From positions 1,417,001 through 1,481,000 of the forward strand of contig NZ_BLAW01000001.1 of assembly GCF_009617895.1 (NCBI RefSeq): 64,000 nt of DNA, read 5' to 3'. The stretch is from Prolixibacter sp. SD074 (GTDB lineage Bacteria > Bacteroidota > Bacteroidia > Bacteroidales > Prolixibacteraceae). The position numbers and the translations under genes were made by a program. Below, one piece after another: positions 31,078-35,985 of this stretch. Each line of letters opens with the position of its first letter. Positions within the stretch are counted from its first letter, which is position 1. The notes under the pieces were generated by a model. It was not told where the DNA came from. It made no database searches and saw nothing but the letters and a program-made list of their open reading frames with translations.

Positions 31078-32721
31078 TTAACCCATGAAAACCTCAATGT
31101 CTTCATCTACGGTTTTAATTCCGGCAATTCCGAAATTTTCTACCAGAACGTTGGCCACGTTTGGAGAAAGGAATGCAGGAAGTGTCGGTCCAAGATGAAT
31201 ATTCTTTACTCCGAGATAGAGCAACGCCAGCAATACAATCACTGCTTTCTGTTCGTACCAGGCAATGTTATATGCAATCGGCAGCTCGTTAATGTCATTC
31301 AATTCGAATACCTCTTTCAGCTTCAGGGCAATTACTGCTAACGAATAAGAGTCGTTACACTGCCCCGCATCCAACACGCGGGGGATGCCACCAATATCAC
31401 CCAGTGAAAGTTTATTGTAACGATATTTAGCACAACCGGCCGTCAAAATTACCGTACCTTCGGGAAGTTTATCTGCAAATTCAGTATAGTAATCGCGGCT
31501 CTTCATGCGTCCATCGCAACCTGCCATTACAAAAAACTTCTTGATAGCTCCGGTTTTTACAGCATCAACAATTTTATCGGCCAATTGTATTACCTGGTTG
31601 TGTGCGAAGCCACCTACAATCGTTCCGGTTTCCAATTCCGTCGGTGCAGCACATTTTTTTGCATGCTCAATGATGACTGAGAAATCTTTAGGTTGACCAT
31701 CTTTCCGGGGTGCAATGTGTGTTACACCTTCAAATCCTGCAGCGCCAGTGGTATATACGCGATCTTTATAGGAAGCGGCTGGAGGTACAAGACAATTAGT
31801 CGTCAGCAATACCGGACCGTTAAACGCTTCAAACTCTTCTTTCTGCTTCCACCATGCGTTACCATAGTTCCCAACAAAATGTTTATACTTCTTGAAAGCC
31901 GGATAATAATTGGCCGGTAACATTTCGCTGTGCGTGTAAATATCCACACCAGTTCCTTCGGTTTGCTTCAACAATTCTTCAAAGTCTTTTAAATCGTGAC
32001 CACTAACCAGGATACCAGGATTCTTCTGTACACCCAGGTTCACTTCCGTGATTTCCGGATTACCGTAACTTTCGGTATTGGCCTGGTCGAGCAATGCCAT
32101 CACATCCACACCATATTTTCCGGTTTCCATGGTTAAAGCAACCAGCTCATCAACCGTAAGATTATCGTCAGTAGTAGCAGCCATTGCTTTCTGCATGAAT
32201 GCATACAACTCTTTCTTTTCGTAACCGAGATTAAAAGCGTGCTCAGCATAAGCAGCCATTCCTTTCACACCATAAACAATCAACTCACGCAAAGAACGAA
32301 CATCAGGATTCGCAGTAGAGAGAACTCCCACGTTAGCAGCTTTTTCTTCGAATGCTTCCAGTGTATCAGCTTCCCAGGTAACCGATTCATGCGTATGGGT
32401 CAGTTTGCCACCTTCCGCTTCAAAACGGTTTTTCAATTCAGCACGAAGCTTCAGTCCTTCACGAATTTTTTCTTCGATTTTTGTTTTATCGAAATTGGCA
32501 TTGGTAATGGTCATGAAAAGAGCGTCAAACACAAAGCGGTTTACAGGCTCCCATTCGATTCCCATTTGACGGGCTTCCTGCGCGTATATCGATATTCCTT
32601 TGGTAACAAAAACCAGTAAGTCCTGTAAATTGGCTACATCATCGGTCTTACCACAAACACCTTTGACGGTGCAGCCTTCGCCTTTCTTGGTTTCCTGACA
32701 TTGAAAACAAAACATACTCAT
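31078..32721 (-). CDS. hcp: hybrid-cluster protein (hydroxylamine reductase)
   Basis: 547 residues, full length. It holds a [4Fe-4S] cluster and an Fe-S-O hybrid cluster; it reduces hydroxylamine in vitro and NO to N2O in vivo in E. coli. The N-terminal Cys motif is Cys5, 8, 17, 23 (CFQC-x8-C-x5-C, the class with the short C-x2-C spacing and an extended helical domain). Hybrid-cluster ligands are seen in [40 protein letters not shown] and the Lys/Glu-rich end. It is the second gene of the unit, 53 bases after the ferredoxin-domain gene. Confidence 0.97.
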
Positions 32722-32774
32722 AATTATTCGTTTTAAAGATTAAGTTTTATGATTAACTATTTATATAATGGCAC

Positions 32775-33656
32775 TTATACCCACTCTTCTTCAAGTACTT
32801 CACCACGAATGCTGACAGTGATGGCTTTTACCGGAACTTTTCGGCTAGCCCGTTGTGTGGCCATTTGAACTATTTGATGCAAACCACCGCAACAAGGAAC
32901 TTCCATCATAAGCACCGTAATCGTGTTCACCTTTGCTTCGTTGATCAGTGTGATTAACTTTTCGAGGTAAACCTCTTTGCCGGAATCCAGTTTCGGACAA
33001 GCAATAACTAACGATTTATCCTTCAGGTAATTTTGATGAAAATCACCCATGGCAAAAGCAGTACAATCGGCTGCAACCAACAAGTCTGCACCTCGAAAAT
33101 AAGGCGCTACCGGATTAATGAGATGCATCTGCACTGGCCACTGTCGAAGCTGTGATGCCAATGAACCATTTTCACCCTTAGGCAGCAGCTTCAACTCCTC
33201 CGGGTTAAAAACTACGGTTTGAGAGCTTGGGCATCCACCACCACAACTGCTTCCATTCACCGGCTTCGGCCCAGCATGAACAGCATCCTTAACCGACTGA
33301 ACAGAGAAGGGCAAAGTCTTTGCATTTTCCACCAAATATCCCATTCCCTGCTTCAAAAATCCTGTCTCATTGTGCCCACGCAGATGCTTCAAATGTGCCA
33401 CTACCGTATTAAATCCTTTACTCACCATGATCTCTATCACCTTCACTTCATCGTATGGCTCCGCTTCACGGTTTTCAATGGTAATGGCCCCTTCCGGACA
33501 GTGCCCGATACAAGCTCCCAAACCATCGCACATCAAATCGCTGATTAGAACGGCCTTCCCGTCAATAATCTGCAATGCACCTTCGTGGCAGTTTGGCACG
33601 CAAAGACCGCAACCGGTACATTTCTCGTCGTCTATATGGATGATGTCACGTTGCAT
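32775..33656 (-). CDS. ferredoxin-domain protein, probable electron donor to Hcp
   Basis: 293 residues. The N-terminal 60 residues are a two-cluster ferredoxin: Cys13, 16, 19, 23 form a full CxxCxxCxxxC motif, while the second reads C-DGLGA-C-IGH-CPEG (Cys43, 49, 53), with the middle cysteine of the usual motif replaced by Leu. Beyond about residue 130 come a GGGCPSSQT motif, VAADCTAF, and PCCGGLHQIV, suggesting more metal or redox ligation. It is first in the hcp operon, so it likely passes electrons to Hcp. The whole family is usually annotated only as 4Fe-4S binding. Confidence 0.88.
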   Translation of the reverse strand: MQRDIIHIDDEKCTGCGLCVPNCHEGALQIIDGKAVLISDLMCDGLGACIGHCPEGAITIENREAEPYDEVKVIEIMVSKGFNTVVAHLKHLRGHNETGFLKQGMGYLVENAKTLPFSVQSVKDAVHAGPKPVNGSSCGGGCPSSQTVVFNPEELKLLPKGENGSLASQLRQWPVQMHLINPVAPYFRGADLLVAADCTAFAMGDFHQNYLKDKSLVIACPKLDSGKEVYLEKLITLINEAKVNTITVLMMEVPCCGGLHQIVQMATQRASRKVPVKAITVSIRGEVLEEEWV

Positions 33657-33695
33657 GTTCCGTTTTGTTTGTTCTGTTGTCTAAGTTTTACATCA

Positions 33696-33703
33696 TAAAT
33701 GTA
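33696..33703 (-). promoter_or_regulatory. -7 box of the hcp operon
   Basis: The minus strand reads TACATTTA (one mismatch to TAnnTTTG). It would start transcription near 33689, placing the centre of the palindrome at 33725-33740 at about -42, the usual activator position for Crp/Fnr proteins. Confidence 0.5.
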
Positions 33704-33724
33704 GAGCGGATGCTACCAGGAAAG

Positions 33725-33740
33725 TGTAACAGCTGTTACA
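33725..33740. promoter_or_regulatory. perfect 16-bp palindrome, probable Crp/Fnr-family operator
   Basis: TGTAACAGCTGTTACA is an exact palindrome in the 115-base gap between the divergent hcp operon and the Crp/Fnr gene. Its size and symmetry suit a dimeric Crp/Fnr regulator. It sits about 42 bases upstream of the predicted hcp start and within the -33 region of the regulator's own promoter. Confidence 0.75.
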
Positions 33741-33746
33741 ATTCGG

Positions 33747-33754
33747 TATATTTG
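33747..33754 (+). promoter_or_regulatory. -7 box of the Crp/Fnr gene
   Basis: TATATTTG is a full TAnnTTTG match 17 bases before the ATG at 33772 and 6 bases after the palindrome. Confidence 0.6.
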
Positions 33755-33771
33755 CATAAAAACCTTCAGAG

Positions 33772-34437
33772 ATGAATACGGTTCTTGCCCAATCGCCCAT
33801 ATTCAAAGAACTTCAACCACTAGAAGTTGAAAATCTACTGGTTCAGGTCCCACATCAGATTCGACACTTCCACAAAGATGATTTGCTGGCCGTAGCCGGG
33901 GAAGAAGTGAATGCAGCGATGATTATCATGGAAGGAAAGCTTCAGGGTGAAATGGTTGACTTTGGCGGGAACAGTTTGAAAATAGAGGAATTAACTCCAC
34001 CACAGATGGTTGCTGCCGGTTTCCTTTTTGGACGAAACAGCCGTTTCCCAGTGAATCTTTCGGCTATGGCTGATGGCAAAATGCTAATCATTTTAAAGCC
34101 CAATTTTACGCGGCTGTTGAGTCTCGACAATCGTGTTCTAAATAACTTTCTGAACATCATTAGCGATAAAGCACAATTCCTTTCCCGGAAAATCAGCTTT
34201 CTGAATTTTAAAACCATCCGCGAAAAAATTGCCTTTTTTCTGCTGCAATATTACAAACCAGGATTCCGGAATATTCCACTACCACAGAATCAGCAAAGTC
34301 TGGCAGAAATGTTTGGTGTGGCACGACCTTCTCTGGCGCGCACCATTGGCGAATTACAGCGTGAAGGTATTTTGGAATGGCGCCGTAGCGAAGTAGAAAT
34401 CAGGAATGCCGAAGCGCTAAAAAGTATATTACAGTAA
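33772..34437 (+). CDS. Crp/Fnr-family transcriptional regulator
   Basis: 221 residues: a cyclic-nucleotide-binding-like beta-barrel (about 15-120), a long dimerisation helix (LDNRVLNNFLNIISDKAQFL) and a winged HTH with recognition helix SLAEMFGVARPSLARTIGELQREGIL. There is no Fnr-type N-terminal Cys cluster, so an Fe-S oxygen sensor is unlikely; the class with haem or NO sensing (HcpR/Dnr-like) fits the context. It is divergent from the ferredoxin-hcp-ygbA unit with a perfect palindrome between, so it most likely controls that unit and itself. The effector is not shown by the sequence. Confidence 0.92.
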   Translation: MNTVLAQSPIFKELQPLEVENLLVQVPHQIRHFHKDDLLAVAGEEVNAAMIIMEGKLQGEMVDFGGNSLKIEELTPPQMVAAGFLFGRNSRFPVNLSAMADGKMLIILKPNFTRLLSLDNRVLNNFLNIISDKAQFLSRKISFLNFKTIREKIAFFLLQYYKPGFRNIPLPQNQQSLAEMFGVARPSLARTIGELQREGILEWRRSEVEIRNAEALKSILQ

Positions 34438-34449
34438 GACCCCGTTTCA

Positions 34450-34558
34450 TTATTGGTATATTTACCGATAAACATCATTTATTAGTATTTATACCGATAA
34501 AATAAATTTATTGGTATACTTACCGATATTGCATGTTTATTGTTATATTTACCAATAA
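34450..34558. promoter_or_regulatory. array of four operator-like dyads at 29-bp period
   Basis: Four 22-bp imperfect palindromes of the form TTATtGGTA-N4-TACCgATAA begin at 34450, 34479, 34508 and 34537, exactly 29 bases apart, each separated by a 7-base linker of unrelated sequence. Copies 1-4 vary at one to three positions. Copies 1 and 4 also contain TATATTTA, close to a -7 box. The array ends 34 bases before the ATG of the SatD-like gene, which has a C-terminal HTH, so autoregulation is the simplest idea. Confidence 0.85.
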
Positions 34559-34592
34559 ATTGATTACATAGAACGGACGAAGGCAATAATGA

Positions 34593-35285
34593 ATGATGAA
34601 AAACAGGGCAACCATTTCATGCGATATCATCTCTTCAACGGCTTTGTCTGCCGCAAATCGAGATATGTTGTCAGAAAAGCTGAAAGAGTTGATGACTAAA
34701 CTTACGCGGCACTTTGCCAATCAGGGATTTTACGGCCGAGTGCTGAAAGGTGATTACATCGAATGCGCCTTGGATACTCCGGAAACGGCCCTGCGTGTGG
34801 CCCTACTTATTAAAACGTTTGTACGGGCAATCGAGTTGCCAACATCTAAAGAAGAAAACAAACGCATAAAATACTTCAAGGAGCATGGCGTGCGCGTGGC
34901 CATCGCGGTAGCTCCGCTGGAAAACTACCAGCCCCGGAAAGGAGTTATGGACGGAGAAGCCATATATCTTTCAGGAAGAGCACTAAACCGGAACAACACA
35001 CACGACAAGCAAAAAATCGTCATCAAACGAACATTGTATTTTCTTTCAAACGATCTGGCTGTTCAACGTTTATATGAAACCATGCTCGAAATGCTGGATG
35101 TAATACTGGTACGTTGTTCGGCCAAACAATGTGAGGTCGTATTTTATAAATTGCTAAACAAATCGGAAGTGGAAATCTCCAAAATTCTACAAAAGAACCA
35201 GTCGACCATCAACCAGCATTCGACAGCTGCCGGCTGGAATGCCATAGACCGGGCGGTTTCGTACTTCGAAGAAAACATACACTGA
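34593..35285 (+). CDS. SatD-like regulator: cyclase-fold domain plus helix-turn-helix
   Basis: 230 residues. Residues 1-140 resemble a class III nucleotide-cyclase homology domain: ISCDIISSTAL (metal-binding Asp position), GRVLKGDYIECAL (second Asp position), and RVAIAVAPLEN before DGEAIYLSGRALN, which parallels the Gly-rich and Asn/Arg end of cyclases. Residues about 175-225 (NKSEVEISKILQKNQSTINQHSTAAGW) form an HTH like sigma region 4. The layout matches what I recall as the SatD family. It may sense a nucleotide and bind DNA; whether it has cyclase activity is unknown. It is followed after one base by the DUF3307 gene and preceded by the four-dyad array. Confidence 0.8.
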   Translation: MMKNRATISCDIISSTALSAANRDMLSEKLKELMTKLTRHFANQGFYGRVLKGDYIECALDTPETALRVALLIKTFVRAIELPTSKEENKRIKYFKEHGVRVAIAVAPLENYQPRKGVMDGEAIYLSGRALNRNNTHDKQKIVIKRTLYFLSNDLAVQRLYETMLEMLDVILVRCSAKQCEVVFYKLLNKSEVEISKILQKNQSTINQHSTAAGWNAIDRAVSYFEENIH

Positions 35286-35286
35286 C

Positions 35287-35985
35287 ATGATACTAACCCT
35301 CTTGTTCCTGCAGCTTACGGCCCATCTGGCAGCCGATTTCCTTCTTCAAAGCGAACGCTGGAGTTTACAGAAAGAGAAAAAAATAGTCAGCAAGATTCAC
35401 ATCTGGCATATCCTCATCGTTTTTGCTTCGGCATGGCTTTTTTCATTGCAATGGGCTTTCTGGTCAGCCGCATTTGCCATTGCAATATTGCATTTTCTTA
35501 CAGATATGGCGAAGAGCTTTATCAGGGTAAAGTGGAACAAAGATTGGTTTTTCATCGACCAATTTATTCATGTAGTGATTATCATCGCCATTGTGTGGCT
35601 GTATGCACAATCCGGTGTGAATCAAATCCCGGCATTCATCAATACCCAAACAGCTGCCATCATATTTGCTTACACCCTCTGTGTGAAACCATCGAACATC
35701 ATCATCCGGTATATTTTTCGCTACTTCTCAATTCCGGCACCAGTAGAAACAAATAACGAAAATGGCGGTGGATTGCCCAATGCCGGCAAACTGATTGGCA
35801 TTACCGAACGGTTATTGGTTCTGACGTTGGTACTATTGCAGCAATATTCAGTCGTGGGTTTCATCATTGCAGCCAAATCTATCTTGCGCTTTAGCGATGC
35901 GCAGAAAACCGAATATGTTCTTGTAGGAACCTTGCTGAGCTTTGGAATAGCCATTTTGATGGGCGTTATAGTAGGCTATTTCTAG
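35287..35985 (+). CDS. DUF3307 integral membrane protein
   Basis: 232 residues with about six transmembrane segments. The N-terminus (LTAHLAADFLLQSERWSLQKEKK) and the next block (HIWHILIVFASAWLF, then AILHFLTDMAKSF) carry the His/Asp pattern of DUF3307: HLAADF, HI-H and H-x3-D, which could bind a metal inside the membrane. The gene ATG comes one base after the stop of the SatD-like gene, so the two are co-transcribed and probably translationally coupled. Function unknown; the coupling implies the regulator controls, or answers to, this membrane protein. Confidence 0.88.
   Translation: MILTLLFLQLTAHLAADFLLQSERWSLQKEKKIVSKIHIWHILIVFASAWLFSLQWAFWSAAFAIAILHFLTDMAKSFIRVKWNKDWFFIDQFIHVVIIIAIVWLYAQSGVNQIPAFINTQTAAIIFAYTLCVKPSNIIIRYIFRYFSIPAPVETNNENGGGLPNAGKLIGITERLLVLTLVLLQQYSVVGFIIAAKSILRFSDAQKTEYVLVGTLLSFGIAILMGVIVGYF

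Follow-up and report, generated by a model that had tools for sequence, protein, structure and literature searches.

A dyad array of fixed spacing as the probable operator of a SatD-like regulator and its DUF3307 membrane partner

In Prolixibacter sp. SD074, four operator dyads and the two genes behind them are proposed to form a self-contained module, in which dimers of a SatD-like protein on the array would repress the gene of a DUF3307 membrane protein, with a nucleotide as the likely signal; taken as a whole, we regard this reading as probable. Two of its elements stand on firmer ground. That the SatD-like protein binds the array is very likely, judging from the way in which its recognition helix and the operator bases vary together, and that it controls DUF3307 is nearly as likely, judging from where the arrays are placed. 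Since the regulator and its sites have evolved in step in many bacteria, this unstudied pair of genes can now be put to the test.

The window, i.e. the whole stretch of 64,000 nucleotides analysed here, carries the 22-bp dyads between a Crp/Fnr gene and the SatD-like/DUF3307 unit (Table 1). An earlier sequence-only reading had described them as equally spaced, which recomputation bore out (29, 29 and 29 bp). Its two-gene unit stands as well, a single base separating the two frames, and the SCDII, KGDY and SGRALN motifs were found again in the SatD-like frame, which has a second ATG at 34596. Allowing up to three mismatches, TTATNGGTAN4TACCNATAA has five matches in the whole window versus 0.31 expected. 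Upstream of the array (31078-34437) lie a gene of the prismane (hybrid-cluster) family, a 4Fe-4S protein gene and the divergent Crp/Fnr regulator, which together resemble a nitrosative-stress unit. The closest named relative is Prolixibacter bellariivorans, whose SatD-like protein is 96% identical.

Table 1. Features of the dyad array and of the genes around it, in window coordinates
Feature	Position	Strand	Basis
Operator dyad 1	34450..34471	.	0 mismatches to TTATNGGTAN4TACCNATAA
Operator dyad 2	34479..34500	.	1 mismatch to TTATNGGTAN4TACCNATAA
Operator dyad 3	34508..34529	.	1 mismatch to TTATNGGTAN4TACCNATAA
Operator dyad 4	34537..34558	.	1 mismatch to TTATNGGTAN4TACCNATAA
SatD-like regulator, 230 aa, predicted class III cyclase fold and C-terminal HTH	34593..35285	+	ORF, model, profile match
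Codon of D11, first predicted metal Asp	34623..34625	+	conservation, alignment with Ma1120
Codon of D54, second predicted metal Asp	34752..34754	+	conservation, alignment with Ma1120
Predicted recognition helix, residues 203-212	35199..35228	+	helix in model; covariation of 203, 205 and 208
DUF3307 membrane protein, 232 aa, proposed regulated partner	35287..35985	+	PF11750 match; model
N-terminal DUF3307 domain	35299..35640	+	PF11750 match; conserved residues
C-terminal part of DUF3307 protein with all ten invariant residues	35773..35952	+	alignment
Crp/Fnr gene	33772-34437	upstream of array, divergent	family match

That such arrays precede homologous pairs in other genomes, as the sequence-only reading would have it, holds for many of them. 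After removal of repeats, our set of homologues comprised 184 distinct loci, two of which have less than 200 bp of upstream DNA and were left out of the array scan. We counted as an array at least two dyads within the 200 bp before the regulator, with a score of at least 8. By this definition, arrays of period 28 or 29 precede the regulator in 146 of the 182 scored loci, versus 2 of 182 dinucleotide shuffles. Taken singly at the same threshold, period 28 was found in 47 loci and period 29 in 105, while the periods 24-27 and 30-34 accounted for 0-4 loci each; at a score of at least 10, the periods left are 28 and 29 only. Most of the 146 arrays have three copies (87), followed by two (30) and four (26), with five copies in two arrays and thirteen in one. 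In genome G359, 13 near-identical 29-bp units lie within 400 bp before one SatD-like gene (locus L034), with N further upstream. Among the records listed as plasmids, period 28 was the best of 20-40 in Vibrio lentus (three dyads, score 11) and in two Pseudoalteromonas records (scores 8 and 9), two Salinivibrio records have period 28 below threshold (scores 5 and 6), and for Segatella copri no array of period 20-40 was seen before the pair. By the scoring used, 32 of the 184 loci have no array before either the regulator or DUF3307; two of these have too little upstream DNA, and four lack DUF3307 in the stretch examined. As to the conservation of the dyads, period and outer bases are kept, whereas the dyad sequence itself varies between species. 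The choice of period is linked to an insertion of 1-3 residues between residues 178 and 203 of the regulator, which is present in 37 of 42 cases with period 28 versus 11 of 104 with period 29 (Fisher p 2e-19, descent ignored); array spacing apparently follows the regulator protein.

The outer operator bases are mostly WTAT and bases 5-7 vary between species. For each of 190 protein columns, we correlated its differences with those of the operator, with N-domain distance as a control variable and a lower weight for near copies; this took in 135 of the 146 arrays, the remaining 11 having other outer bases or another register. The best column for every operator base falls within residues 202-208: N202 for base 5 (0.16, followed by T205 with 0.14), T205 for base 6 (0.34, followed by I8 with 0.15), Q208 for base 7 (0.44) and Q203 for the outer bases (0.41, followed by T136 with 0.17). 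K74 (0.30) and W215 (0.29), second and third for base 7, stand outside the recognition helix. In the predicted model, residues 203-212 are helical and thus hold positions 203, 205 and 208, residue 202 being placed just before the helix. In every test, the observed maxima were reached by none of 200 global and none of 200 within-clade permutations, the latter being a coarse control because most members fall into two clusters of 77 and 42. Base 6 is G in 47 of 59 cases where residue 205 is T or S, and A in 46 of 52 where it is A; base 7 is G in 75 of 82 cases where residue 208 is Q, C in 8 of 10 where it is K, and T in 4 of 4 where it is G. Such pairings of residue and base read like a code. A sister-pair test (66 pairs) gave a weaker picture: T205 and Q208 rank third for their own bases behind columns outside the HTH (L60, A70, R129 and L18, the last for the core bases), N202 comes second for base 5 behind L18, and only Q203 is first. 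Because recognition-helix residues covary with operator bases, we consider it most likely that the SatD-like protein reads the array, in line with the earlier suggestion that the regulator acts on it.

DUF3307 adjoins the regulator on the same strand in 177 of the 184 loci. Among the seven loci without it, L151 stops 49 bases past the regulator, and 857 to 1479 bases follow it in the other six. In a smaller set of 13 loci found in relatives, the SatD-like frame adjoins DUF3307 in all 12 examined, the window's own included. The partner frame beside the regulator seems short or interrupted in L007, L018, L020 and L196; the SatD-like frame of L196 is only a fragment, and both of its genes look fragmentary.

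The -7 box of Bacteroidota has the form TAnnTTTG. This motif is present in 78 of the 146 array-bearing upstream regions versus 16.2 expected, although the stretch upstream of the window's own pair lacks it. Its distance after the last dyad centre is 20-21 bp in 35 of the 78 regions, which would put the last dyad between -33 and -7. Among the 38 loci whose regulator has no array in front of it, 14 have the two genes at least 85 bp apart. Six of the 14 have a period-29 array directly before DUF3307 (L015, L018, L023, L062, L095 and L114, with scores of 17, 18, 15, 13, 10 and 8, respectively, but only 3 to 7 before the regulator). No array of score 8 was seen before DUF3307 in the other eight, of which L092 (score 7) and L111 (score 5) have the same half-site as L095, and none of the rest of the 38 loci reaches score 8 there. 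In L066, also with separated genes, the array stands before the regulator. Because six separated-gene loci carry the array at this site, it tends to go with the DUF3307 promoter; its position at the unit promoter and, in these six, before DUF3307 suggests that control runs from the regulator to the membrane protein. The sequence-only reading had left open which of the two controls the other, and the array positions point to the first of its options. In silico, the pair looks like an operon under its own operator, as in toxin-antitoxin systems. A second cluster of the searched dyad patterns was seen neither in the window's own genome nor in the genomes G359, G007, G491 and G492. Nor did a wider regulon emerge: at up to three mismatches, the own genome has 44 dyad matches versus 50 in the reversed control; G359 has 17 versus 22, with 11 of the 17 inside the one array. 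The genome G493 has no dyad match at all and is thus uninformative on a second cluster.

The N-terminal domain of the regulator had been taken for a cyclase-like domain, and structure prediction concurs. The model (mean pLDDT 94.7) returned class III cyclases as all 50 among the Foldseek matches listed for the PDB (best E 6e-4, probability 1.00), with modest TM-scores of 0.32 to 0.43 of the query and up to 0.57 of the target. The family profile matches the cyclase Ma1120 (E 2e-4) with both Asp residues aligned. In the regulator alignment (99 rows of 142 picked), all rows keep D54 and all but one (98 of 99) keep D11. According to the model, the N-terminal domain is thus a class III cyclase fold with both predicted metal Asp residues. 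Positions 125 and 129, presumed by motif to be the transition-state Asn and Arg of cyclases, are variable and Arg in 53 of 99 rows, respectively; on this presumed assignment, cyclase activity looks unlikely, and nucleotide binding is a plausible prediction.

The label "SatD-like" holds in part only. The PF16264 SatD family, which takes its name from S. mutans genes for secretion and acid tolerance, is matched by 12 of 21 relatives at E<=1 (best E 4.4e-14), but no family model fits the window's own protein: Pfam and NCBIfam gave no match at E<=1, a single-sequence search of the PDB gave none, and PF16264 has no match in the own genome at E<=0.001. In the satD literature at hand, mostly open-access texts in their accessible parts, no molecular function or operator is given; earlier work may exist. 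Two loci, L026 and L028, encode SatD-like proteins without a GDI motif, without an array and without DUF3307 in the stretch examined. Here, a glycoside hydrolase family 2 gene comes after the SatD-like gene, and the protein is perhaps a re-used regulator.

PF11750 (DUF3307) matches the N-terminal half of the membrane protein with 73 bits, above the curated cut-off of 23. The earlier count of six helices differs from the model (mean pLDDT 93.5), which has ten helices of at least four residues, counting helices rather than membrane spans. In the N-terminal domain, ten positions with His, Asp, Gln or Lys are conserved (H13, D17, Q21, H41, H69, D73, K76, D91, Q92 and H95), in or beside four N-terminal helices. 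The ten invariant residues of the DUF3307 alignment (87 rows of 117 picked) are all C-terminal and comprise G..IG..ER, G, K..R, Y and S. Searches by fold and by sequence found no solved relative of DUF3307 and none with known activity. The weak match 5guf, a lipid enzyme from archaea (rank 35, E 9.1), was dropped as a candidate, since its motif order did not seem to fit DUF3307. Two DUF3307-annotated phage proteins (119 and 131 aa) cover about half of the DUF3307 model, with probabilities of 0.97 and 0.63 and E-values of 2.0 and 3.6.

Our proposal for the mechanism is as follows. The SatD-like protein would be a dimeric transcription factor that uses its C-terminal HTH to read one half-site per dyad. 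At their fixed distance of 28 or 29 bp, adjacent dimers would align on the DNA and block the DUF3307 promoter and, in the usual operon order, the promoter of the regulator as well; we think that the SatD-like protein likely represses DUF3307. At 10.5 bp per turn, sites 29 bp apart are about a quarter turn from each other, and the dimers would thus spiral around the DNA. Such constant spacing points to contact between neighbouring dimers, and from it we expect, with reasonable confidence, a cooperative assembly on the array. With its metal Asp residues kept and the usual transition-state residues absent by the presumed mapping, the N-terminal fold would most likely bind a nucleotide rather than act as a cyclase. 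A change of ligand would free the DNA and lead to more DUF3307 in the membrane. On balance, we favour a nucleotide as the gate of the regulator, although its ligand could be another compound.

What DUF3307 does in the membrane is where other explanations come closest. Quite possibly, it is a transporter or a membrane enzyme acting on a nucleotide, a metal or a lipid, and the regulator is an ordinary local switch that responds to a metabolite. The conserved His, Asp, Gln and Lys positions at the N-terminus together with the invariant C-terminal residues would suit such a function, and YdjM is matched by one of the 87 DUF3307 members (E 9e-5). Many loci are located among housekeeping genes; neighbours are mixed and mostly housekeeping-like among the groups listed, the first 25 of each list. 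A chorismate-binding (pabB-like) neighbour recurs in 10 loci outside Aequorivita, Prolixibacter included, but this looks like synteny, and no metabolic neighbour recurring across distant genera was found among the groups listed. This, and the absence of any relative of known activity from the fold and sequence searches, speaks against a transporter or enzyme.

A defence role of the module is possible. In its specific form, as a toxin-antitoxin-like or abortive-infection pair in which derepressed DUF3307 harms the membrane and the regulator silences it until phage or stress shifts the nucleotide pool, we find this explanation doubtful. The spread of the module is patchy: counting the own genome, a protein search of 198 genomes from the order found the regulator in 22, and an alignment search of a phylum sample of 296 genomes found it in 87. 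The genome-contig scan covered 80 loci, the best 80 of 152 relatives, and the follow-up of the phylum sample left out 7 of 63 further matches. Records listed as plasmids also carry the pair; they come from Vibrio, Salinivibrio, Pseudoalteromonas and Segatella, and some are second replicons of megabase size. By matches to type I restriction-modification models, the pair lies between hsdR-like and hsdM/hsdS-like genes in L118 and L119, and in the other order, between hsdM/hsdS-like and hsdR-like genes, in L126. In a 60-kb IMG/VR contig (L215, 8683-11583), the gene next to the pair (966 aa) matches the TOTE conflict-system primase PF22548 (E 9e-98), which suggests that this pair is carried by a mobile element. 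As an indirect hint, satD of Streptococcus pyogenes is reported to be essential where present yet accessory, occurring in 178 of 249 genomes (PMC11323703), which is what one would expect if it were an antidote gene. Against these points stand the mostly housekeeping-like neighbours and the outcome of the defence and phage searches. Of eight module proteins compared with PADLOC, seven, the window proteins among them, had no match at E<=0.01, and the eighth matched at E 0.007 over an HTH stretch. A tblastn search of phages with the window and Vibrio proteins found no match, and a search of viral contigs returned none for the regulator and two for DUF3307. In the phages and viral contigs searched, carriage of the pair is thus nearly absent, though short DUF3307-annotated phage proteins exist.

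A wider version of the module reading is speculative, and we think it rather unlikely: a mobile, self-contained sensor-effector module of Bacteroidota and Gammaproteobacteria, in which a catalytically retired class III cyclase serves as the nucleotide sensor of a repressor that coils regularly around an operator array of its own, and a nucleotide signal, raised by phage infection or stress, frees a membrane effector with two domains. In this case, the regulator would drift along with the operator core, giving each lineage its own code.

As to the sign of control, the SatD-like protein might be an activator that bends the DNA between the -33 and -7 boxes, which we consider unlikely. The distance of about 20 bp from the last dyad to TAnnTTTG in the 35 regions mentioned above would place a dyad where it could suit a MerR-like activator. 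In 13 of the 78 regions, however, the last dyad centre is 10-12 bp from the box, in 7 it lies on the box, and the 13-copy array fits occlusion better.

We reject two further explanations of the dyads. A partition or replication site is very improbable: one array of 13 near-identical copies would fit, but 143 of the 146 arrays have 2-4 copies, and the arrays stand at the promoter of the pair or, in the six separated-gene loci, before DUF3307. Crp/Fnr proteins bind dyads and the Crp/Fnr gene adjoins the array, yet sites for its product are more improbable still, as arrays are kept in Gammaproteobacteria without an annotated Crp/Fnr neighbour and it is the SatD-like helix with which the core bases covary.

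With the SatD-like protein as the probable repressor of DUF3307, two families of unassigned role can be tested as a single system whose promoter and operator are named and whose recognition code can be read. The natural series in which helices and operators match offers ready data on protein-DNA specificity and on how an operator can change while its spacing is kept. For DUF3307, there is now a lead on a family whose regulator was found in 87 of the 296 genomes of the phylum sample. We also suggest, going by the model, that a small repressor can use a class III cyclase fold as its sensor.

Among known systems, the class III adenylyl and guanylyl cyclases (Ma1120, 4wp8; 5mbb) share with the SatD-like protein the predicted fold and both metal Asp residues. 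The SatD-like protein differs from them by its presumed Arg, found in 53 of 99 rows, by a variable presumed Asn (both positions again assigned by motif) and by the C-terminal HTH. With respect to the family models, PF16264 covers the 12 of 21 relatives but not the window's protein, and the DUF3307 protein of the regulator-linked pair has a second, more conserved half beyond PF11750, whereas the short phage proteins align with about half. A cyclase homology domain joined to an HTH is likewise found in the CHD+LuxR regulators of Actinobacteria (PMC3466318); these are described as generators of cAMP, and the accessible part of that source mentions neither a DUF3307 partner nor an operator array. 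Local repressors of defence operons of the CapS/CapK type differ in protein family and in signal (phosphorylation, single-stranded DNA), but in the accessible part of their description they are, like the SatD-like protein in our proposal, repressors encoded with the single adjacent operon that they control (PMC13373217).
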